NCBI RefSeq assembly: GCF_015291745.1
Contig: NZ_CP030059.1
Coordinates: forward strand, 5,793,501-5,857,500
Source of the DNA: Bradyrhizobium sp. CCBAU 53351
GTDB lineage: Bacteria; Pseudomonadota; Alphaproteobacteria; Rhizobiales; Xanthobacteraceae
Reading direction: 5' to 3'
Length of the DNA stretch: 64,000 nt
The notes below the pieces were generated by a model, which saw only the letters and a program-made list of their open reading frames with translations, made no database searches and was not told where the DNA came from. This document shows positions 3,587-44,873 of this stretch, piece after piece (positions within the stretch are counted from its first letter, which is position 1; every line of letters starts with the position of its first letter). The translations under genes were made by a program, and so were the position numbers.

Positions 3587-4063
3587 TCAGAACGGCAGCT
3601 TGCGCCCGTCGTCCTGCCAGATCGGCGGCCCGCAGCCTTCGGACTCTTCGCCTTGCCGGTCGCCCGGATCGACCATCCTGATGCGCAGACGGCGCATGGT
3701 CTTCTTGGTTTCTTCGATGCTGAAGCCGCGCGCCTGCAAGTCGGCCAGCGCCCGCCTCAGGAGGTCGTAGTCCGCCGGGGTCAGCATGTCCGACCAAGAC
3801 GAGGTCGCCAGCGCCGTCGCCAGCGCCAGGCCGACGTCTGTGGTCGTGGGAGCCTTGCGCCTGTCCATCTCGCTGCGCCACCGGGCCGTCCGCAGACGCT
3901 GCTGCGCCTTTTTGAGTTCGAGCGGCTGGCGCCGTCGACGAAGTTTCACGAACAGGTTGTCCGGCCTGTCCGGGTCACGCTGGAAATACGCGCCCCGGGC
4001 CTCGTCCATCTCCGCGATCCGGTCGGCGTCCGCTTGCGTCAGTTGCCGTCTGAGCTTCGCCAT
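3587..4063 (-). CDS. hypothetical protein of the mobile element
   Basis: This 158-residue protein is of no recognised family. It is highly charged and helical, with a basic N-terminal region (KLRRQLTQADADRIAEMDEA) and a segment rich in Arg and Lys (about residues 40-75). A short less charged stretch follows (about 80-105), and then a helix pair around ADYDLLRRALADLQARG and IEETKKTMRRLRIRM. It lies between the RHH gene and the Rep-like gene, all on the minus strand. That placement suggests a replication- or maintenance-related accessory role, but nothing in the sequence shows it. Confidence 0.55.
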   Translation of the reverse strand: MAKLRRQLTQADADRIAEMDEARGAYFQRDPDRPDNLFVKLRRRRQPLELKKAQQRLRTARWRSEMDRRKAPTTTDVGLALATALATSSWSDMLTPADYDLLRRALADLQARGFSIEETKKTMRRLRIRMVDPGDRQGEESEGCGPPIWQDDGRKLPF

Positions 4064-10503: not shown

Positions 10504-10685
10504 TGCAGCGCGCCGTCGAAGATCTCGATATCACGGAGGTAGTCCACGCGGTGCGGGACGCCGTGCGGCCGGCGGGCCTCTTCTCGTTCGTGAGGGACAC
10601 TCTCCACCACCCGCGCAATCAGGTTGCGCGCGGCGACTGGGAGAAGCGCATGCCGAAGAAAAAGCGCAACAGGAGATCGAAGTGA
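10503..10685 (+). CDS. small basic hypothetical protein
   Basis: This 60-residue protein starts in a stop-start overlap with the preceding gene and ends in one with the following gene. It has an amphipathic N-terminal half (VEDLDITEVVHAVRDAVRP) and a very basic end (KKKRNRRSK), which suggests contact with nucleic acid. No family is recognised. It belongs to the tightly packed chain of small genes from 10,234 to 11,339. Confidence 0.45.
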   Translation: MQRAVEDLDITEVVHAVRDAVRPAGLFSFVRDTLHHPRNQVARGDWEKRMPKKKRNRRSK

Positions 10686-10879
10686 TGTCCGCGAAGCGCG
10701 ACGACCGCATCGCCGCCCGCGAGGCCGCCTATCGCGGTCCGACGAATCCTTTCGATCCCGGATCCCGGCGCCACCGGCTGTTCGCGAAGGCGCGCCAGCA
10801 CGTCGAGAACATGGACGCTGCGTTCAGGGATCTGGAGGCCGTCTACGGCACGATCGGACAGCGGAAGGAGAGCGTGTGA
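10685..10879 (+). CDS. small hypothetical protein
   Basis: This 64-residue protein starts at the ATG at 10685, which overlaps the upstream stop. A GTG at 10682 is an alternative. It is helical and charged (RDDRIAAREAAYRGPTNPFD, HVENMDAAFRDLEAVYG) with no recognised family. The stop overlaps the next start (TGATG), so the chain is translationally coupled. Confidence 0.45.
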   Translation: MSAKRDDRIAAREAAYRGPTNPFDPGSRRHRLFAKARQHVENMDAAFRDLEAVYGTIGQRKESV

Positions 10880-34077: not shown

Positions 34078-36747
34078 ATGTCTGACGCAATGGTTGCTAC
34101 TCGTGCCACCGAGAAACGCGGAACCGCTCAGCAGGTCGATGTCGCCGTGGTCGGCGCCGGATTTGCTGGCCTCTATCTGCTGCATCGCCTGCGCAAGGCC
34201 GGTTTCTCGACCGTCGGCCTCGACGAGGCCGGTGACGTCGGCGGCACCTGGTATTGGAACCGCTACCCCGGCGCGCGCTGCGACATCCAGACCATCGATT
34301 ACAGTTACACCTTCGATCCTGAGCTCGAGACCGCCTGGACCTGGTCGGAGAAATACGCGACCCAACCCGAAATCCTGCGCTATCTCGGCTTCATCGCCGA
34401 CCGCTACGATCTCAGGCGCGACATCCGCTTCAAGACCAAGGTCACCGAAGCCAAATGGGACGAGCAGGCCGAGCGCTGGCTCATCACCACCGACAATGGC
34501 GAACCGGTTTCCTGCCGCCATTACATCATGGCCACCGGCTGCCTCTCGGCGCCGAAGCCGCCGGAGATCGACGGCGTCAAGGATTTCAAGGGCGAGGTCT
34601 ATTTCACCGGACGCTGGCCGCATGACGGCGTCAATCTCGCGGGCAAGCGCGTCGCGGTGATCGGCACCGGCTCGTCGGCCATCCAGTCGATCCCACTGAT
34701 CGCCGAGCAGGCAGCGCATCTGACCGTGTTCCAGCGCACGCCGAACTTCGCACTGCCGGCGCATAACGGCCCGGCGCCGTCGGACCGCAAGACCTTCTTT
34801 GAAAGCGATCGCGCGGCCTATCGCGAGCAGGCGCGCCAGTCGATGGCCGGCGTGCCCTATCCGCAGCAAACGGTCGTGAGCTGGCAGCTCAGTGACGCCG
34901 AACGTCGCGAGCGGTTCGAACGGGCCTGGGCGGCGGGCGACCTCGTCCACATCCTGACCCAGCTCTGGGCCGATCAGGCCGTCGACGTCGACGGCAACAA
35001 GATCGTCCAGGACCTCATCCGCGAGAAGATCCGCGCGGCCGTGAAGGATCCCGAAACGGCGGCTGCGCTGATGCCGGATGACCATCCCTTCGGCGCCAAG
35101 CGCCCCTGCCTGGAGACCAACTACTACGCGACCTACAACCGGCCGAACGTCACCCTGGTCAATCTACGCCAGGAGCCGATTAAGGCGATCACCGCCGGCG
35201 GCATCACGACGGCCAAGCGCAATTTCGACGTCGATGTCATCGTGTTCGCGACCGGGTTCGATGCCATGACCGGCGCGATCCGCGCCGTGCATCCGATCAC
35301 CGGGCGCGGCGGCAAATCGCTCACCGACGTCTGGGCGCAGGGACCGCAGAGCTATCTCGGGCTCACGGTGGAAGGCTTCCCGAACTTCTTCATGATCACC
35401 GGGCCAGGCAGCCCGTCGGTACTGTCGAACATGGCGGTGTCGATCGAGCAGCATGTCGACTGGGTGGTCGACCGCTTGGCTGCGCTGCGCGATGCCGGCT
35501 TCACCACGATGGAGCCGACAGAGACGGCGCAGGCCGGCTGGAACAGGCACATGGCCGACTGCTCGATGCTGACGCTGCACCGGCTCGCCAACACCTGGTA
35601 CACGGGCGCCAATGTGCCCGGCAAGGTGCAGGGCCTGATGCCCTATACCGGCGGCGTCGGCCCCTATCGCAGCATCTGCGACGAGGTGGTCAGCCGCGGC
35701 ATGCTCGGTTTCAAGCTCACCGGTCCCGGAGGCGCCGCGCAATGCAATGACGGCGAGGTGGTGCGCCTGCAGCCGGACGTGCGGCTGGTGCTGGGCCTGC
35801 TCGCGACACTGAACCTGCCGCCGATCGAGTCGATGGGCGCGGAAGGCGCGCGCGCCTTCGTCAACGAGTTCAACAAGGGCCGGCCCGCGGGGCGGCCGAT
35901 CGGCGACATCGTCGATGGCACCCTGCCCGTCACGGGCGGCGCGTTGCCTTACCGCGTCTACAAGCCGGCCTCGCCGGGACCGCATAAGGTCGTGGTCTAC
36001 TTCCACGGCGGCGGCTGGGTGCTCGGCGACGAGCAATCGGACGAGCCGTTCTGCCGCGACATGGTGCGGCGGACCGGCATGATGTTCGCCAGCGTCGGCT
36101 ATCGGCACGCGCCGGAGCATCGCTTCCCGACCGCGGCCGAAGACGGCTATGCCGCAACGCGCTGGATCGCCGAGCACGCCGAGCAGCTCGGTGGCAGCCC
36201 GGGCCCGGTGCTGGTCGCGGGGTGGAGCGCCGGCGGCAACGTCGCCGCCGTCACCTGCCAGCTCGCCCGCGATCGCGGCGGGCCCGAGATCGCCGGCCAG
36301 CTGCTGATCTGCCCGGTCACCGATTGCACCTTCGATCGACCCTCCTACAACGACAATGCGGTCGGCTACTTCCTGACGCGCTCGTTGATGTACTGGTTCT
36401 GGGACCTCTATTGCTCGCCCGCCGACCGCAGCGATCCGCGGGTCTCGCCGCTGCGCGGCAAGGTCGCCGGACTGCCGCCGGCCTTCGTGGCGACCTGCGA
36501 ATTCGATCCGCTGCGCGACGAAGGCATCGCCTATGCCGAGGCGATGTCGGCCGCAGGCGTCCCGGTCGAGCAGTTGAAGGCGCACGGCCATTTCCACTCG
36601 TCCTTCACCATGGTCGACGTGGTGATCACCGGCGTGCCGGGCCGGGTGCAGATGGCGGAAGCCTTGCGGCGCTATGCCGGGCTGCCGCCCGAGGTCAGTC
36701 GCGACGAGCCTGGCCCTGGCTTCAAGATCGCGGCGGCGGCGAGCTGA
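34078..36747 (+). CDS. fused Baeyer-Villiger-type monooxygenase and HSL-family esterase
   Basis: The protein has 889 residues. Residues 20 to about 570 form a flavin monooxygenase: FAD-binding GAGFAG at 26-31, DVGGTWYWNRYPGARCD, a second Rossmann motif VIGTGSSAIQ near 197, and the BVMO fingerprint region FKGEVYFTGRWP (170-181). Residues about 610-880 form an alpha/beta hydrolase of the hormone-sensitive lipase type: HGGGW at 643-647, GWSAGGN with S717, D810 in CEFDPLRDE and H840 in GHFHSSF. The two parts would turn a ketone into an ester and split it in one polypeptide. The fingerprint His is Phe176. GGGAGG precedes the ATG. Confidence 0.92.
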   Translation: MSDAMVATRATEKRGTAQQVDVAVVGAGFAGLYLLHRLRKAGFSTVGLDEAGDVGGTWYWNRYPGARCDIQTIDYSYTFDPELETAWTWSEKYATQPEILRYLGFIADRYDLRRDIRFKTKVTEAKWDEQAERWLITTDNGEPVSCRHYIMATGCLSAPKPPEIDGVKDFKGEVYFTGRWPHDGVNLAGKRVAVIGTGSSAIQSIPLIAEQAAHLTVFQRTPNFALPAHNGPAPSDRKTFFESDRAAYREQARQSMAGVPYPQQTVVSWQLSDAERRERFERAWAAGDLVHILTQLWADQAVDVDGNKIVQDLIREKIRAAVKDPETAAALMPDDHPFGAKRPCLETNYYATYNRPNVTLVNLRQEPIKAITAGGITTAKRNFDVDVIVFATGFDAMTGAIRAVHPITGRGGKSLTDVWAQGPQSYLGLTVEGFPNFFMITGPGSPSVLSNMAVSIEQHVDWVVDRLAALRDAGFTTMEPTETAQAGWNRHMADCSMLTLHRLANTWYTGANVPGKVQGLMPYTGGVGPYRSICDEVVSRGMLGFKLTGPGGAAQCNDGEVVRLQPDVRLVLGLLATLNLPPIESMGAEGARAFVNEFNKGRPAGRPIGDIVDGTLPVTGGALPYRVYKPASPGPHKVVVYFHGGGWVLGDEQSDEPFCRDMVRRTGMMFASVGYRHAPEHRFPTAAEDGYAATRWIAEHAEQLGGSPGPVLVAGWSAGGNVAAVTCQLARDRGGPEIAGQLLICPVTDCTFDRPSYNDNAVGYFLTRSLMYWFWDLYCSPADRSDPRVSPLRGKVAGLPPAFVATCEFDPLRDEGIAYAEAMSAAGVPVEQLKAHGHFHSSFTMVDVVITGVPGRVQMAEALRRYAGLPPEVSRDEPGPGFKIAAAAS

Positions 36748-38781: not shown

Positions 38782-38949
38782 TCAGCGCGATACGATGCGC
38801 CAGATGATGATGGGCCGCGTGTCCGGCCGGCTCTCGGCCGGCTCCGCATCACCCTTCAGGAGCTGCGCGAACTCACGCCAATAGAGTCGTCGCCAGGTCG
38901 TCTTCAAGCTGGCGAGAAAATCGAGCTCTCGTTGCGTCAGCGTGCACAT
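38782..38949 (-). CDS. short ORF at the end of the DUF1800-DUF1501 operon
   Basis: This 55-residue ORF starts 6 bases after the stop of the DUF1501 gene. It reads MCTLTQRELDFLASLKTTW, then RRLYWREFAQLLKGD, a Pro/Glu-rich stretch and RPIIIWRIVSR. The composition is natural and the spacing suggests coupling with the gene upstream. No family is recognised. It could be a small partner of DUF1501 or a chance frame. Confidence 0.4.
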   Translation of the reverse strand: MCTLTQRELDFLASLKTTWRRLYWREFAQLLKGDAEPAESRPDTRPIIIWRIVSR

Positions 38950-38955
38950 CGCGCC

Positions 38956-40206
38956 TCAGGCCACAAGGCCTCCCATCGGTTTGACGTCCGCGCTGCCGGG
39001 GAAGACCATATCCGCCAGCACCTTCTCCTCGACGCGCAGATGATCTCTGAGCAGGCCTTTCAGCACGGCGCGCAGATCGGTAGTCGGCTTGAGGTCGCGG
39101 TCTTCGAACAGCTGCGCCGGCTTCAGGCCCGGCCAGTCCGCGATCACGCGGCCGCCCGCGAGCCCGCCGCCGATCAGGAACGCGACCGTGCCCGTGCCAT
39201 GATCTGTGCCCTGCGTGCCGTTGATGCGCGCGGTGCGCCCGAACTCGGTGACGACGGCGACCACAGTCTCCTTCCATGCCTCGCCCATGTTGGTCTCAAT
39301 CGCGGCGAACGCGCCATCGAGTGCACCGAGCAGATTGTAGAGCTGGCCCGAGGCCGCCCCTTCCGCGATGTGGGTGTCCCAGCCGACGAAGCCCATGGCG
39401 CCGACGCGCGGACCGTCCTGCTTGGCGAGGTAGCGCGCGGCGGTGCCGGCCGCTTCCGCAAAATAAGCGCGCACGCGCGCGATGCCCGGTGGCGCCAGCG
39501 TCGGATCGTCCGACATCGCTTCGCCTGCGCCCGGTGCCCCGCCGAGCGAAGCGAGCTTCATGCGTGCCTGCAGCACGGTGGCGAGCTTCGGGTCGGTGTG
39601 CCGGTAGAGATCGAGCAGGCGGCTCTGGGTGTCCTCGCTCGCCGGCAAGAGCTTTTGCGGCACCCATGTCATCACAGGCGCGGAGCCGCGCACCACCAGC
39701 GGCGTCACCGAACCGATGCCGAGCGCGCGGCTGCCGCGCGGATCGACGCGGCCGCCCCCTTCCAGGGCAAGCAGCGCGCGGTTGAGCCAGCCCGAGGCGG
39801 TTGCGCCCGGCTTGGTGAAGCCGCTCTCCAGCACGTCCTGGCCGTCGAAATGCGAGCGCTCGCGATAGGGCGTCGCGGTGGCATGGACGATCGCGGCCTT
39901 GCCGCTCTTGTAGAGCCGGTGCAGGTTCGGCATCGCCGGATTGAGCGCGAAGAAGGAATCCAGCGGCAGCGCCGGCGGCTTGCCGTCCAGCACCAGCGCG
40001 CGGTCGCCGCGCAGCGAGATCCAGTCGGGATCGCCGACCGGCGCGACCGCACCGAGGCCATCGAGCGCACCGCGCAGGACGATGACGAGCAGCCGCGGAT
40101 CGCGTCCTTCGGCGCGCGCGATCCTGGGCATCTGGCTCCAGGCGAACAGCGCACCGGAGCCGGCCAGAAGTTCGCGCCGCGTCGGCAGGTGATTGACGAT
40201 GCCCAT
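38956..40206 (-). CDS. DUF1501 family protein, Tat-exported
   Basis: This 416-residue protein begins with PTRRELLAGSGALFAW, a twin-arginine signal, so it is exported folded. The body matches DUF1501, a sulfatase/alkaline-phosphatase-like superfamily member: LLVIVLRGALDGLGAVAPVG, HATATPYRERSHFDGQDVLE, GFVGWDTHIAEG, VVAVVTEFGRTARINGTQGT and DHGTGTVAFLIGG. The role is unknown. DUF1501 genes are usually found with DUF1800, as here. The ATG at 40206 has AGGAGG six bases before it, and a GTG at 40212 is too close to that site. The upstream DUF1800 stop overlaps the ribosome site. Confidence 0.9.
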   Translation of the reverse strand: MGIVNHLPTRRELLAGSGALFAWSQMPRIARAEGRDPRLLVIVLRGALDGLGAVAPVGDPDWISLRGDRALVLDGKPPALPLDSFFALNPAMPNLHRLYKSGKAAIVHATATPYRERSHFDGQDVLESGFTKPGATASGWLNRALLALEGGGRVDPRGSRALGIGSVTPLVVRGSAPVMTWVPQKLLPASEDTQSRLLDLYRHTDPKLATVLQARMKLASLGGAPGAGEAMSDDPTLAPPGIARVRAYFAEAAGTAARYLAKQDGPRVGAMGFVGWDTHIAEGAASGQLYNLLGALDGAFAAIETNMGEAWKETVVAVVTEFGRTARINGTQGTDHGTGTVAFLIGGGLAGGRVIADWPGLKPAQLFEDRDLKPTTDLRAVLKGLLRDHLRVEEKVLADMVFPGSADVKPMGGLVA

Positions 40207-40208
40207 GC

Positions 40209-41663
40209 TCACCTCCTCTGAAAATCCGCCGACATGAACAGCAATGCCAGCGCCTGCTGGCGGCTCTCGGCGCGGCCGACCGCCTGCTTCACCTCGCTCG
40301 CGATCTCCGATGCAAAGACGTCCTCGATGATGGCTTGCGGATCGGTCGTGCCTGCGAGGCGCTCGGCTAGATTGTTGGCGACATCGAGCCGCCGGCCGAC
40401 GCCGTCGATCCAGCTCGCCTCGTCATCCGGATAGCCTTTTGGCGCGGACGGGCGCCACAGCGGCTCGCCGAGCAGCTCCTGGCCGCCGGTGTAGCGGACC
40501 GGATCGACCTGGGTGATGCCGGTCGCACGTGCCATGCCCACGACCCATTCGCCGGGCCGCTTGAGCTTTGACGGCGGCCCGCGCCATGCCTCGTCCGACG
40601 ACACCATCGCGATCGCGACCTGCTTGAGATCGCCATCGGTGTCGCGAAAGGTTGTCGCCAGCTGCTCGACCAGGACCGGCGGCGGCTCGTCGGCGACGAA
40701 GTGGCGGGCAAGCTTGGTCGCGACATGGGTCGCGGTCGCCGGATGCGCGGCGAGATCGCGCAGCACGGCGCGGCCCTGCTCGACGTCCTCCTGCTCATAG
40801 CGCTTGCCGAGCACGGTCTGGCCGCCGGGCTCATGCAGCCGCGGATTGAAGATGAACTCGCCGCCATGCTGGGGATCGGCGCCCGGCGGCACCAGCGTCC
40901 AGCCGGTCATGACGTTCGCGAAGCTGATGACGTCGTCCTGGGTGTAGCCGGTGCGCACACCGAGCGTATGCAGCTCCATGATCTCGCGCGCGATGTTCTC
41001 GTTGAGACCGCGGCTGCGGTTGATGCCGGCGATCGAGTTCGCCCCCATCGAGCCGAGATTGTCGAGATAGAACAGCATGGCCGGATGGCTTTCGGCCGCC
41101 AGCAGGAGATCGACGAAATGGCCTAGCGCGTGGGCGCGAACCGCCTCGCGCTCATAGGCGCCGGACATGCTCTGGATCTTGTTGGCCGAGATGCAGAAAT
41201 GATTGGACCAGAACCACACCAGCCGTTCGGCAAAGCCGATCTCGGCAGTGAGCGCAGCTTCGGTCCGCAGCTTGGCTTCCTGCAAATAGATCGGACGGCC
41301 GGGATCGGGGACGGCATCGGCCGCCTGCTTCGCCGCCATCTCGGCGGCGTCCTTCTCCTGGGCATAGCCCTGTGCCCGGCCCTCGGGCTGCGCCTGATCC
41401 GCCGACGCCATCTGCTGCTTCTTGACCTGCTGCTGCGCCTGCTTGGCCCGCGCCGTCCGCCGCGCATTGGCATCGGCAACGGTGCGATAGGCCTTTGCGC
41501 TGGGGGGAAGGCTGGCGGCGGCGCTCAGTGTGAGCGGCCGGTCGAGCTCGGCAACCAGCGCGCCGCGCGGGTCGGTCCCGATCGCGGCCATCGATCCCGG
41601 CCGCGGTCCCATCCCGAAGCGATGCAGCGCCAGCAGGGCTTCTGTCTTGGCAGAATTGCTCAT
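40209..41663 (-). CDS. DUF1800 family protein
   Basis: This 484-residue protein is of the DUF1800 family: ALLALHRFGMGPRPG at the N-terminus, FAERLVWFWSNHFCIS, GAYEREAVRAHALGHF, NENIAREIMELHTLGV, DVISFANVMTGW and HVATKLARHFVADEPPP. No signal peptide is seen. It is the usual partner of DUF1501, whose gene starts 3 bases after its stop codon. The pair is suspected to act on an extracellular or periplasmic polymer or on surface attachment, but no activity is established that I can name. A perfect palindrome matching a BlaI operator lies 50 to 77 bases before the start. Confidence 0.9.
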   Translation of the reverse strand: MSNSAKTEALLALHRFGMGPRPGSMAAIGTDPRGALVAELDRPLTLSAAASLPPSAKAYRTVADANARRTARAKQAQQQVKKQQMASADQAQPEGRAQGYAQEKDAAEMAAKQAADAVPDPGRPIYLQEAKLRTEAALTAEIGFAERLVWFWSNHFCISANKIQSMSGAYEREAVRAHALGHFVDLLLAAESHPAMLFYLDNLGSMGANSIAGINRSRGLNENIAREIMELHTLGVRTGYTQDDVISFANVMTGWTLVPPGADPQHGGEFIFNPRLHEPGGQTVLGKRYEQEDVEQGRAVLRDLAAHPATATHVATKLARHFVADEPPPVLVEQLATTFRDTDGDLKQVAIAMVSSDEAWRGPPSKLKRPGEWVVGMARATGITQVDPVRYTGGQELLGEPLWRPSAPKGYPDDEASWIDGVGRRLDVANNLAERLAGTTDPQAIIEDVFASEIASEVKQAVGRAESRQQALALLFMSADFQRR

Positions 41664-41712
41664 GGCGATCGCCTCTTTCTTCGCGCCTGCCCTGATCGCG
41701 AGTCGTTAGAAG

Positions 41713-41740
41713 CTACGATTTGTAATGCTACAAATCGTAG
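41713..41740. promoter_or_regulatory. candidate BlaI-family operator upstream of the DUF1800-DUF1501 operon
   Basis: A perfect inverted repeat has 12-base arms CTACGATTTGTA and TACAAATCGTAG separated by ATGC. The core TGTAATGCTACA matches the TGTA-N4-TACA form used by BlaI/MecI repressors. It shares the TGTAAYGCTACA core with the site upstream of the blaI-like gene. It lies between the M56 gene and the DUF1800 start. Confidence 0.7.
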
Positions 41741-41810
41741 CATTCACATTGCCGGCCGACAAGCGGAGATTGCGACGCCTCCGTCAAGAAATCGCGAGCC
41801 GCCACCCTGC

Positions 41811-44330
41811 CTAGAAATTCGGGCCGAGCGCGATCTTGGTGATGGTGCCGTTCCGGACGCCGATGCGCCATTCCGCCGAGCCATTGGCGAACTGGGCGAT
41901 GTAGATGTCGCTGTCGAGCGCGGTGACGCCGCGGAACGAGACCGCCCGCAACGCGCCGAGCTTGGCCAGGATCGCCTGGTCGAACGGCAGCTGCTGGCGC
42001 GTGATCTCGGCGACCTCCGACGTCATGAGCTCGTAATCGGGCTGTCCCTTGCCGACGCCCTCGATATAGCGGCGCAGCATCTCCTCGCCATTGGCGATCG
42101 GAACGGCGCGGCGTGCGGCGCGCCCCGGCTTCGCGCCGAGGTTCGAAGCCTCCACGTTGTGGAAGCGCGTCTGCCGGCCCGGCATCAAGACCTCGAGGCA
42201 CCGCCCCGACTTGTCGGCAATGACCCAGGGATTGTTCACGGTGGTGGTGACAGCCCAACTCATATTGGGCCTGACGACGCTCTGCGCCTTGCGATTGCCG
42301 TCGGCGTCGAGATTGAAGATGCGGATGTCCTCGCCCATCTCGTTGTAGAGCATGATCCGGATCGGCGAGGTGCCGGCGCGACCGCGCACATTCGCCTGTT
42401 CGGCGCAGGGCATGATGCCGCCGAGCTCGTCATTGCCGTCGGCCCGGAAGATGACGTCGCCGGCCTTGCCGTCGGGCTCGAGCAGCAGGCGGAATTCCGC
42501 CGTGCCGTTCTCGAACTTGGCGCCATAGATGTCGTAGCCGCCGGGGCCGACGCCGCGGAAGAAGATCGATTCGAGGGCGCCGAGCGCCACGAAGGTGGCC
42601 TGCGTCTCGTTGAGCTGTCGATGGATCTTGGCCGCCAGCGGCGCACTCATGCGGTCGTAATTCGGCCTGCCTTGGCGCATGTCCTCGATCCCGCGCAGGA
42701 TCATCTCCTTGCTGCCGGCAACCGGGACCTGCTCGCGGAAACGATCCGGGACTTCCGCGACACGGCGCGCAAAGTCGGCCTCGATCGCCTGCGCCACCGC
42801 CGCGTCGATCCGCGGCGCGAGACGCGCGCCGGCGACCGCGTTCTGGACCAGCACGCGCGAGACCCTGGCCTGCTCGTCGCGCAGGAAGATCAGGAGGTTG
42901 TGGCCATGGATCGAGAAGGCATCGGCACCTTCGGCGAGAGCTGTCGCCGGGCCCTGCACGGTCTCCTGCACCTGCAGCCGATCCCCATCGCGGCGCACGG
43001 TGAGCACGCGGTTCGGCGCCAGCCGGTACCAGCCGACATATTGATCGAGCGGCGCGGGCTCCGCAGCGGTGGTCGGCATCTCCGCGACACGAACCGCGCG
43101 GATGTCGCGGCCGTTCATGCGCAAGCTCAGCTCGGCCGAGCGATGCTCGGCATCGAGCGGGAACGTGATCTCGCCGGACGAGGCCGGATAGGACGCCGTG
43201 CCGTCGCGGCCCACCGTCAGGCGCAATTTGCGCTGCCCGGTCATCTGGCCGTAGAGATCGTCGCCCTCGCGGAAGATGGCGAACACCGAGGCCGGACCCA
43301 TGGCGTAGAAATTGACGAACGGGCGATAATGCTGGGCCGGCGCCTCACCGAGATCGGCGATGGGTGCGGGATCCGGCGCGCGATAGGCGATCATGCCGGC
43401 GGACATGATCACGACGGGTGCGATCGCGCTCGCGATCCAGAGCCGCTTGCGCCAGCCGACCGCAGCTGGCATCGCGGCCGCCGCGATGATGCGCTCGACG
43501 CGGGCGCGCACGGTCGAGGCCCGCGCCATCGCGAGCTCGACCGACCGCGGCCTCACCGTGCTGGCGAAATCGAGCAGGATTTCCGCATAGGACAGCCGGT
43601 CCTCGATGACCTCGATCGCCTCGATGTCGCTGATGATCTCGGCGAGCTCGGCGAGGCGTGCGAGCTGCCACCATGCGAACGGGCTGAACCAGAACATTGC
43701 CCGATTGAGCGACGCCAGCAGCAGGACATAGAAGTCGCGGTTGGCGACATGCGCGCCCTCATGCGCGAGCACGGCGAGGCGCTTCTTGGCGTCCCAGCCG
43801 GCGAACTGCGGCGGCACCAGAATGGTCGAGCCGAAGGTGACGGGACCGCCGACATCGCGGCTGACGCGCACGTCGGTGCCGGTCATCGGCAAGCCGCGCA
43901 GCGGTTTTGCCGCCCGCGCCAGCCGCCAGGTCAGGAAAAGACCGATCGCGAGCCGCAGCAGCAACAGGCCGGCAACGCCGGCATAGACGAGGGTGGCGAT
44001 CAGCCACCAATTGATCGGCAGACCACTTCGCATCACCGGCGGCGCGACGGCACCGGCGGGAGCGCCGGACAGCGCGGGCTGCGGCGTCTCCAGCATCGAG
44101 ATGTCGGCCGGCAGGAAATCATCCGGCACGGAGACCGGCAAAGGCAGCCGGCTGATCGTGAGCGTCGGCCAATGCATCACGAACGGCATCGCCAGCGACG
44201 CCAGCAGCACGACGATCCACGCCGTCATGTGAACGCGCGGATTGCGCGCGCAGAAAAGATTGAGACCGAACCAGACGACGCCTCCCAGCACAAGGGAGCG
44301 CAGTGCCGCCTCCGCCAGAGTTGCGATCAT
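41811..44330 (-). CDS. M56 (BlaR1/MecR1-like) membrane metallopeptidase with duplicated C-terminal domain
   Basis: This 839-residue protein has about four membrane segments in its first 290 residues. The zinc motif HEGAH is at residues 190-194 in VLAHEGAHVANRDFYVLLL, and FAWWQLARLAELAEIISDIE follows as the family third-ligand region. The rest is periplasmic. It carries no penicillin-binding domain of the BlaR1 kind. It ends in two copies of about 95 residues, one with YDRMSAPLAAKIHRQL and GALESIFFRGV, the other with YELMTSEVAEITRQQL and GALRAVSFRGV. It would sense an unknown periplasmic signal and cleave or inactivate the BlaI repressor encoded just upstream (ATGA overlap). Confidence 0.85.
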   Translation of the reverse strand: MIATLAEAALRSLVLGGVVWFGLNLFCARNPRVHMTAWIVVLLASLAMPFVMHWPTLTISRLPLPVSVPDDFLPADISMLETPQPALSGAPAGAVAPPVMRSGLPINWWLIATLVYAGVAGLLLLRLAIGLFLTWRLARAAKPLRGLPMTGTDVRVSRDVGGPVTFGSTILVPPQFAGWDAKKRLAVLAHEGAHVANRDFYVLLLASLNRAMFWFSPFAWWQLARLAELAEIISDIEAIEVIEDRLSYAEILLDFASTVRPRSVELAMARASTVRARVERIIAAAAMPAAVGWRKRLWIASAIAPVVIMSAGMIAYRAPDPAPIADLGEAPAQHYRPFVNFYAMGPASVFAIFREGDDLYGQMTGQRKLRLTVGRDGTASYPASSGEITFPLDAEHRSAELSLRMNGRDIRAVRVAEMPTTAAEPAPLDQYVGWYRLAPNRVLTVRRDGDRLQVQETVQGPATALAEGADAFSIHGHNLLIFLRDEQARVSRVLVQNAVAGARLAPRIDAAVAQAIEADFARRVAEVPDRFREQVPVAGSKEMILRGIEDMRQGRPNYDRMSAPLAAKIHRQLNETQATFVALGALESIFFRGVGPGGYDIYGAKFENGTAEFRLLLEPDGKAGDVIFRADGNDELGGIMPCAEQANVRGRAGTSPIRIMLYNEMGEDIRIFNLDADGNRKAQSVVRPNMSWAVTTTVNNPWVIADKSGRCLEVLMPGRQTRFHNVEASNLGAKPGRAARRAVPIANGEEMLRRYIEGVGKGQPDYELMTSEVAEITRQQLPFDQAILAKLGALRAVSFRGVTALDSDIYIAQFANGSAEWRIGVRNGTITKIALGPNF

Positions 44331-44719
44331 TCTTTCTTCACTCCCCTCGCCTTCTTCGCCTTGGCCACCTGGTCGGCCAGCTCGCGCAATTGCTGCTGGT
44401 CGAGCATCTTGTTGTCCACCATGCCGACGAGGACCTCCTCGATCGAGCCATTGCAGAACCAGTCGACGATGCGCTGCACCGCCTTGGCCGCCACCTTCGC
44501 GCGCTCTTCGGCGGCGTGATAGACATAGGTGCGGCCGTCCACGGTGTGGCGAGCATAGCCCTTTTCCTCCAGCCGGCGCAGCACCGTACGAACCGTCGAT
44601 TCCTTCAGCCGCCGCGACAGACGTTCACGCACGATCTCGGCCGTGACGGGACCATGGGCCCAAACCAATTGCATGACCTCGCGCTCGAGGTCGCCCAGTT
44701 CGGGCAAACGATCGTCCAT
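44327..44719 (-). CDS. BlaI/MecI/CopY family transcriptional repressor
   Basis: This 130-residue protein has an N-terminal winged helix-turn-helix: LPELGDLEREVMQLVWAHGP, VTAEIVRERLSRRL, KESTVRTVLRRLEEKGYARH and VDGRTYVYHAAEERA. The C-terminal dimerisation part includes VDWFCNGSIEEVLVGMVDN. These are BlaI-family markers. It shares an ATGA overlap with the M56 gene downstream, the standard layout of BlaI-BlaR1 pairs. A TGTA-N4-TACA site lies 31-42 bases before its ATG, consistent with autorepression. The start at 44719 is chosen because upstream residues are not conserved-looking. Confidence 0.9.
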   Translation of the reverse strand: MDDRLPELGDLEREVMQLVWAHGPVTAEIVRERLSRRLKESTVRTVLRRLEEKGYARHTVDGRTYVYHAAEERAKVAAKAVQRIVDWFCNGSIEEVLVGMVDNKMLDQQQLRELADQVAKAKKARGVKKE

Positions 44720-44749
44720 GGCATCTGACCTTGCGGCTTGAGTTCTTCT

Positions 44750-44769
44750 TGTAACGCTACAGATTGTCG
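44750..44769. promoter_or_regulatory. candidate BlaI-family operator upstream of blaI-M56
   Basis: The core TGTAACGCTACA (44750-44761) differs by one base from the core of the DUF1800 operator (TGTAATGCTACA). The right flank GATTGTCG resembles AATCGTAG of the first site, while the left flank is degenerate. It lies 31 bases before the blaI start. Confidence 0.6.
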
Positions 44770-44873
44770 CATATAGCGCCGCGCGACACAACGCCGATTC
44801 CACCTGAGATGGTGCCGGTGGGCTGACCTGACTGCCGGTTCGTGAATGTGAGACAGGCGAAAAATGCGAGGTC

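Follow-up and report, generated by a model that had tools for sequence, protein, structure and literature searches.

Organization of the Locus and Its Two Promoters

The stretch of DNA studied here (64,000 nucleotides of Bradyrhizobium sp. CCBAU 53351, contig NZ_CP030059.1, positions 5,793,501 to 5,857,500; hereafter the window) carries a row of five minus-strand genes encoding a BlaI-like repressor, an M56 membrane protease, a DUF1800 protein, a DUF1501 protein, and the product of a small open reading frame (ORF). This arrangement had been proposed in an initial annotation of the sequence, and all five genes were found in the given order, with profile matches. The blaI gene (44327..44719) encodes a winged-helix repressor of the BlaI/MecI/CopY family with a length of 130 amino acids (PF03965, 103.3 bits, cut-off 22.6), and its stop codon is overlapped by the start of the M56 gene via ATGA. 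The M56 gene (41811..44330) specifies a membrane metalloprotease with a predicted periplasmic sensor (PF05569, 51.2 bits, cut-off 31; PF11954, 30 bits). It is followed by the genes for the DUF1800 protein (40209..41663; PF08811, 384.6 bits, cut-off 26.1, residues 12–483) and the DUF1501 protein (38956..40206; PF07394, 105.3 bits, cut-off 27), the latter featuring a twin-arginine translocation (Tat)-like N-terminus (TRRELL). The final gene of the predicted operon (38782..38949), which is conserved in a 16-sequence alignment, encodes 55 amino acids (MCTLTQRELDFLASLK...). One PF03965 gene and two DUF1501 genes were found in the genome of the window; its second DUF1800–DUF1501 pair (locus L095) has no adjacent BlaI and no operator match nearby.

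A core shared by the region before blaI and a perfect palindrome before the DUF1800 gene had also been described. Indeed, the core TGTAAYGCTACA is located at 44750–44761, 30 bases from the blaI start codon, and at 41721–41732, 57 bases from the DUF1800 start codon, and these two are the only exact matches in the whole genome of 8,343,321 bases. The palindrome CTACGATTTGTA-GCAT-TACAAATCGTAG, with arms of 12 bp, occupies positions 41713–41740 between the M56 stop codon and the DUF1800 gene. Two operators were predicted on the minus strand, namely GCGAC-AATCT-GTAGC-GTTAC (44751..44770) before blaI, overlapping the core, and GCTAC-GATTT-GTAGC-ATTAC-AAATC-GTAG (41713..41741) before DUF1800, containing the palindrome. 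Both are embedded in predicted promoters with a 17-bp spacer: the blaI promoter (44763..44791) combines the −35-like element TTGTGT (44786–44791) with the −10-like element GACAAT (44763–44768), and the DUF1800 promoter (41734..41762) combines TTGTCG (41757–41762) with TACGAT (41734–41739), the −10-like element lying within the operator in each case.

Allowing up to one mismatch, the core was matched twice in the window, as compared to 0.08 matches expected from shuffled sequences. Genome-wide, 12 matches were obtained at this threshold and 53 for the reversed-pattern control. The operator pattern with up to two mismatches likewise yielded 12 matches (reversed control: 146), comprising the two known sites (zero and one mismatch), the opposite strand of the DUF1800 palindrome, and nine chance-like matches. 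No third promoter bearing an operator site at up to one mismatch was found in the genome of the window.

Distribution of the Unit

To follow the unit beyond the window, 117 genomes of the genus were analyzed (loci and genomes are given below by our L and G numbers). Some M56 match at E ≤ 1e-10 was obtained for 60 of them, and M56 orthologues for 44, namely 43 full-length proteins with at least 52% identity and one split protein (G090). A DUF1800 protein of the window type (at least 700 bits) occurred in 36 of the 44 genomes harboring the orthologue and in none of the other 73 (Fisher p ~1e-22, not corrected for kinship); hence, the neighborhood expected from the initial annotation is conserved across Bradyrhizobium. 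When a DUF1800 paralogue (~48% identity) is included, 109 genomes have a DUF1800 match of some kind. In all 46 loci examined (the window and L041–L085), blaI immediately precedes the M56 gene. The DUF1800–DUF1501 genes followed in 33 of the 42 loci with an orthologous sensor (the window and L041–L081), and the small ORF was detected in 38 of them, although weakly in L074–L079. Six of the 42 loci (L076–L081) have retained the unit at a different place in the chromosome, where the malic-enzyme and RlpA-type neighbors are absent.

In a maximum-likelihood tree of the 42 M56 proteins, DUF1800–DUF1501 were spread throughout, with two changes of the DUF1800 label, which on the tree are best read as two losses, one in a seven-member clade and one in a single genome. 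The seven loci of this clade (L064 and L067–L072), as well as a Tardiphaga metagenome-assembled genome (MAG; L146), show the order M56, operator, and small ORF, without DUF1800–DUF1501. Conversely, five loci (L080, L081, L143, L145, and L151) keep DUF1800–DUF1501 with no small ORF detected; L153 and L147 apparently represent the same genomes as L080 and L081.

A wider scan covered 84,980 species genomes, and the best 80 of 347 hits were kept, corresponding to 74 named loci. DUF1800 and DUF1501 closely followed M56 in 43 of these; among the others were the loss clade already mentioned, loci at contig ends, and distant BlaI–M56 pairs. The sole named locus with DUF1800 outside the Bradyrhizobium group originated from a Hyphomicrobiales MAG (L158). 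Furthermore, 152 alphaproteobacterial genomes, including that of the window and mostly representing one per family, were surveyed, which draws a coarse boundary. DUF1501 was matched in 44 of them (41 above the cut-off) and PF03965 in 27 (19 above the cut-off). BlaI and DUF1501 side by side were seen in the genome of the window and in none of the 151 other, mostly distant, genomes, and a general BlaI–DUF1501 link across the Alphaproteobacteria was thus rejected for this sample. In G138, the two genes are 69 kb apart; every other genome with both has them at a greater distance or on separate contigs, although in drafts the two may still be near each other. As far as sampled, the link looks lineage-restricted and like a trait of the Bradyrhizobium group.

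Conservation of Operators and Promoters

Sites of the form TGTA-N4-TACA had been anticipated at both promoters in related genomes. Sites are indeed kept at both, but as a wider dyad with a spacing of N5, GCTAC-N5-GTAGC followed by RYTAC, and the perfect palindrome is not kept; judged from these comparisons, the window's palindrome represents a local variant of the conserved dyad. The constant element in the relatives reads G[CT][TG]AC-N5-GTA[AG]C-R-[CT]TAC, often with an extra GTAGC half-site at the DUF1800 promoter. Scored out of 15 at 58 loci (the window and 57 named loci), the best match upstream of blaI reached 15 in 54 and 14 in 4 loci. Upstream of DUF1800 or the small ORF, 15 was reached in 53 and 14 in 2 of 55 loci, whereas no target lay within range in the remaining three (L115, which meets a run of N; L118, which meets a contig end; and L142). 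The score never exceeded 13 in 1130 base-shuffled sequences.

Searched genome-wide in the genus, the 20-base operator pattern gave 69 matches in 42 of the 117 genomes, 62 of which were located at the BlaI–M56 locus. A match was present in 41 of the 44 genomes with the M56 orthologue and, among the other 73, only in G034. These sites occur almost only where the BlaI–M56 pair occurs. A BlaI-type operator, as had been supposed, is the likely reading.

Seven of the 69 matches lie off-locus. One belongs to a decayed copy in G034 (L092, contig C83, near 415259), where the operator and a blaI frame that appears to be open precede a fragmented M56 gene and what looks by eye like a remnant of the small ORF; this repressor may thus have been left without its protease. 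Another (L087 in G112, 3996–4015) precedes an S9 prolyl-oligopeptidase-family gene by ~50 bases. The remaining five were inspected as ORF lists; among them, the G082 match lies ~100 bases before an ORF of 620 amino acids and the G071 match within an ORF. The match in G021 (L090, 3763), which is accompanied by a further GTAGC half-site and possibly due to chance, is located upstream of a gene that we take, by eye, to be recA.

Taking the third base of the dyad as the start of the −10 element, TTG was found at a 17-base spacer in 54 of 57 blaI promoters (16 bases in the other three) and in 55 of 55 target promoters, the flanking positions being mostly far more variable. This conserved spacing implies that the predicted operator covers the −10 box and the probable transcription start, as expected of an occluding repressor. 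A generic sigma-70 consensus scan called neither the blaI nor the DUF1800 promoter of the window, so that the promoter assignment is founded on conservation.

The Repressor and the Sensor Protease

The nearest solved structures of the window's BlaI are MecI and BlaI. The NCBIfam BlaI/MecI models gave 45.2 and 38.4 bits, below their cut-offs of 180 and 250, and the best NCBIfam match was CopY/TcrY with 71.7 bits, below its cut-off of 121.95. BlaI has a single Cys; with no CxC motif and a score below the model cut-off, an identity as a CopY copper repressor was rejected. In a plasmid collection, 113 homologous records were retrieved, 95 of them from Enterococcus and 112 with less than 60% identity; most of the 15 for which annotations were listed are named copper repressor TcrY. 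All 44 BlaI sequences compared (L065, a partial match, is omitted from this count) carry the segment VLVG|M or, in four distant ones, VLVG|I, which aligns with LVLN|F of MecI.

The PF05569 match and an HExxH...E zinc site place the protease in the M56 family. All 19 aligned proteins contain HExxH; 18 also have the third ligand (Glu at +41), the remaining one showing a short deletion in between. As deduced from the structural model, which has a fold match to residues 1–292 of BlaR1, the transmembrane and protease part (residues 1–277) is followed by a beta-barrel region (~345–508, with DUF3471 at 421–471) and a putative VHL-like beta domain (647–731); two alpha+beta segments (~540–640 and ~748–835) look alike by eye. 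The best non-protease fold matches of the modeled sensor were the D-aminopeptidase 1ei5 and the penicillin-binding-protein (PBP)-type cyclase Ulm16 (8fek). In agreement with the initial annotation, the outer part is not a penicillin-binding module; the model shows a beta-barrel of hydrolase type together with a beta domain resembling VHL. No transpeptidase family appeared among the profile matches listed up to E = 10, and no SxxK was found after residue 313 of the window protein; among 16 aligned orthologues, the only SxxK common to half of the sequences lies in the protease part (alignment column 268). The blaR1_generic model scored 32.4 bits, below its cut-off of 400.

A second BlaI–M56 type was also observed in the genus (L082–L085, L164, and L167), featuring a shorter M56 protein (~543 amino acids) and a variant dyad before blaI (TGCTAC-N5-GTAAC-GTTATC-like).

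Predicted Target Genes and Variants of the Apparent Regulon

The DUF1501 protein had been described as Tat-exported, which is consistent with its N-terminus: all 11 aligned proteins share the twin-arginine pair. Its structural model is poor (predicted local distance difference test, pLDDT, of 45); the 50 Foldseek matches listed are sulfatases, phosphodiesterases, YejM, and the like (best E 6.2e-3), a suggestive resemblance to the alkaline phosphatase superfamily. The DUF1800 domain extends from residue 12 of its protein, ahead of which no signal peptide is visible by eye, so co-export with DUF1501 would be a guess. No solved relative of DUF1800 was found by sequence. The small ORF has a single match in the genome of the window, and its family comprises 464 database proteins; among the 120 listed, the named ones belong to Bradyrhizobium, except for one deposited as Frankia. 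By its sequence conservation, the 55-amino-acid protein is a real conserved family and integral to the unit, outlasting DUF1800–DUF1501 in one clade. The regulated unit had been taken to be the DUF1800–DUF1501 pair; the pair does follow the operator, but the small ORF has to be added to it. Similarly, the pair is the only nearby target in the window, as had been stated, but a few relatives add a PF00144 serine hydrolase or an S9 peptidase.

These variants were located as follows. In L107 (12520–14757), a PF00144 beta-lactamase-family serine hydrolase with a PDZ domain is encoded on the same strand between M56 and DUF1800. In L078 (10590–10811), a PF00144 and PDZ serine hydrolase lies divergently inside the unit, with its own operator-like site at ~10679–10699. 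In L158, an S9 prolyl-oligopeptidase-family gene (12324 onward) follows the operator within the unit.

Proposed Mechanism and Alternative Explanations

Taken together, the sequence comparisons argue for a real, lineage-conserved BlaI–M56 switch that serves two promoters, with DUF1800, DUF1501, and a small conserved protein as the last members of its regulon. We consider it probable, with good confidence, that the locus forms a self-contained signaling unit, in which one repressor and one protease control blaI–M56 and DUF1800–DUF1501–small ORF. BlaI dimers would bind the two operators over the −10 boxes and start regions of both promoters, one being the autoregulated promoter of blaI–M56 and the other carrying a doubled site before the putative DUF1800–DUF1501–small ORF operon. 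Once a ligand meets the beta-barrel and VHL-like domains in the periplasm, the inward-facing zinc protease of M56 would cleave BlaI at the Gly–Met bond aligned with the known BlaI/MecI cleavage site, thereby derepressing both operons. DUF1501, presumably exported by the Tat pathway and possibly alkaline-phosphatase-like, would act in the envelope, perhaps with DUF1800 as its partner.

Several observations weigh against this mechanism. The published cleavage site is Asn101–Phe102 with an almost invariant Phe at P1′, according to an excerpt of PMC9834060, and P1′ is Met or Ile in all 44 BlaI sequences; P1′ thus still holds a bulky residue, but the site departs from the classical form, and BlaI would be a putative substrate. 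Both window sites read KAC-N5-GTA and neither matches the BlaI/MecI/CopY operator form TACANNTGTA, which implies N4, one base less between the half-sites (PMC7253601). The reversed 20-base pattern is as common as the pattern itself in the genome of the window (two matches each) and often has one to four matches in genus genomes where the pattern has none; rarity therefore proves little, and the argument rests on the position of the matches. Since some of the counted loci had served to define the pattern, the genome-wide search is the stronger test; the genomes are related, so that the counts are not independent. Furthermore, one clade and one further genome lost DUF1800–DUF1501, which makes the pair dispensable to the circuit, and L142 harbors BlaI–M56 with a blaI operator and no recognized adjoining target.

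The loss clade (L064 and L067–L072) and the Tardiphaga MAG (L146), keeping the operator and the small ORF without DUF1800–DUF1501, would fit a circuit whose second operator chiefly serves the small ORF, the real output being the 55-amino-acid protein and DUF1800–DUF1501 mere passengers. We consider this improbable: the pair is found throughout the M56 tree with two losses, and five loci in which no small ORF was detected keep it. The perfect inverted repeat (12 bp) located after the M56 stop codon and ahead of DUF1800 might also be taken for an RNA hairpin or terminator, or for a site recognized by some unrelated regulator. Yet this is hardly credible, since the motif also occurs before blaI and goes together with the presence of BlaI–M56, and since the dyad and promoter, not the perfect repeat, are conserved. 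With no terminator called and no Rfam match, the hairpin or terminator reading was rejected.

More weight is to be given to the explanation that the unit is still a cell-wall or beta-lactam stress switch, the sensor detecting peptidoglycan damage or related peptides and the targets remodeling or detoxifying the envelope. A PF00144 serine hydrolase lies within the unit of L107 and L078, once with its own operator-like site, the modeled sensor best resembles a D-aminopeptidase and a PBP-type cyclase, and a peptidoglycan fragment acts on BlaI in Bacillus, as stated in an excerpt of PMC3305447. Nevertheless, no SxxK or transpeptidase domain was seen in the sensor, and the genome of the window offers no third promoter with a site at up to one mismatch; we regard this explanation as possible but rather doubtful. 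Our judgment is evenly balanced, in turn, on whether the unit represents a new class of repressor-cleaving receptor, in which an M56 protease with a D-aminopeptidase-type barrel and a VHL-like domain would read a non-beta-lactam ligand of the envelope or environment and switch on the Tat-exported DUF1501, DUF1800, and their 55-amino-acid partner. If so, the DUF1800 and DUF1501 families would gain an inducible, ligand-controlled setting.

Outside the unit, an ORF of 889 amino acids on the plus strand (34078–36747) consists of a half resembling flavin-dependent monooxygenases (FMO/Pyr_redox) and an alpha/beta hydrolase (Abhydrolase_3, residues 639–841), as judged from its sequence a possible fused Baeyer–Villiger-type oxidase and esterase.

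Comparison with Known Systems

Pfam still names DUF1800 and DUF1501 as being of unknown function. Mycobacterial BlaI reportedly regulates cell division and growth, judging by the title of PMC12565901, so that a BlaI regulon reaching further than beta-lactamase has a precedent. Nothing joining M56, BlaR1, Proteobacteria, and a periplasmic sensor was found in the open-access literature searched; in an excerpt of the one paper combining BlaI, M56, and Bradyrhizobium, the genus is named for FixK2 (PMC7593790). DUF1501 is named by ten papers of this literature and DUF1800 by four, and excerpts offer little on them beyond adjacency and the Tat signal. An excerpt of PMC5122149 describes DUF1800–DUF1501 pairs beside bacterial chitin synthase genes, with the Tat motif of DUF1501 noted. 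The pair and its Tat-type DUF1501 are shared with the window; BlaI–M56 is not named in that excerpt, and the second pair in the genome of the window likewise lacks BlaI. The predicted two-site regulon with a dedicated sensor makes the role of DUF1800 and DUF1501 directly testable.

Among related regulators, the CopY/TcrY copper repressors share the Pfam family and the TAC/GTA half-sites, but differ by their CxC metal motif and another operator spacing, whereas the BlaI of the window has one Cys and a protease partner. Compared to the D-aminopeptidase 1ei5 and Ulm16 (8fek), no catalytic serine domain was recognized in M56. The closest parallel is provided by BlaI–BlaR1 and MecI–MecR1 of S. aureus and B. 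licheniformis, in which a PF03965 repressor also adjoins an M56 membrane protease with HExxH...E, and dyad operators lie at the promoters of the repressor and of the target. These systems feature a class-D beta-lactamase-like sensor with SxxK, neither of which was seen in the sensor part of the Bradyrhizobium M56. Here, the BlaI/M56 proteolytic switch apparently relies on another kind of sensor and would thereby extend a mechanism that is chiefly known for its role in beta-lactam resistance. The Bradyrhizobium unit is further set apart by its half-site spacing of N5, by Met or Ile at P1′, and by DUF1800–DUF1501–small ORF as its target.
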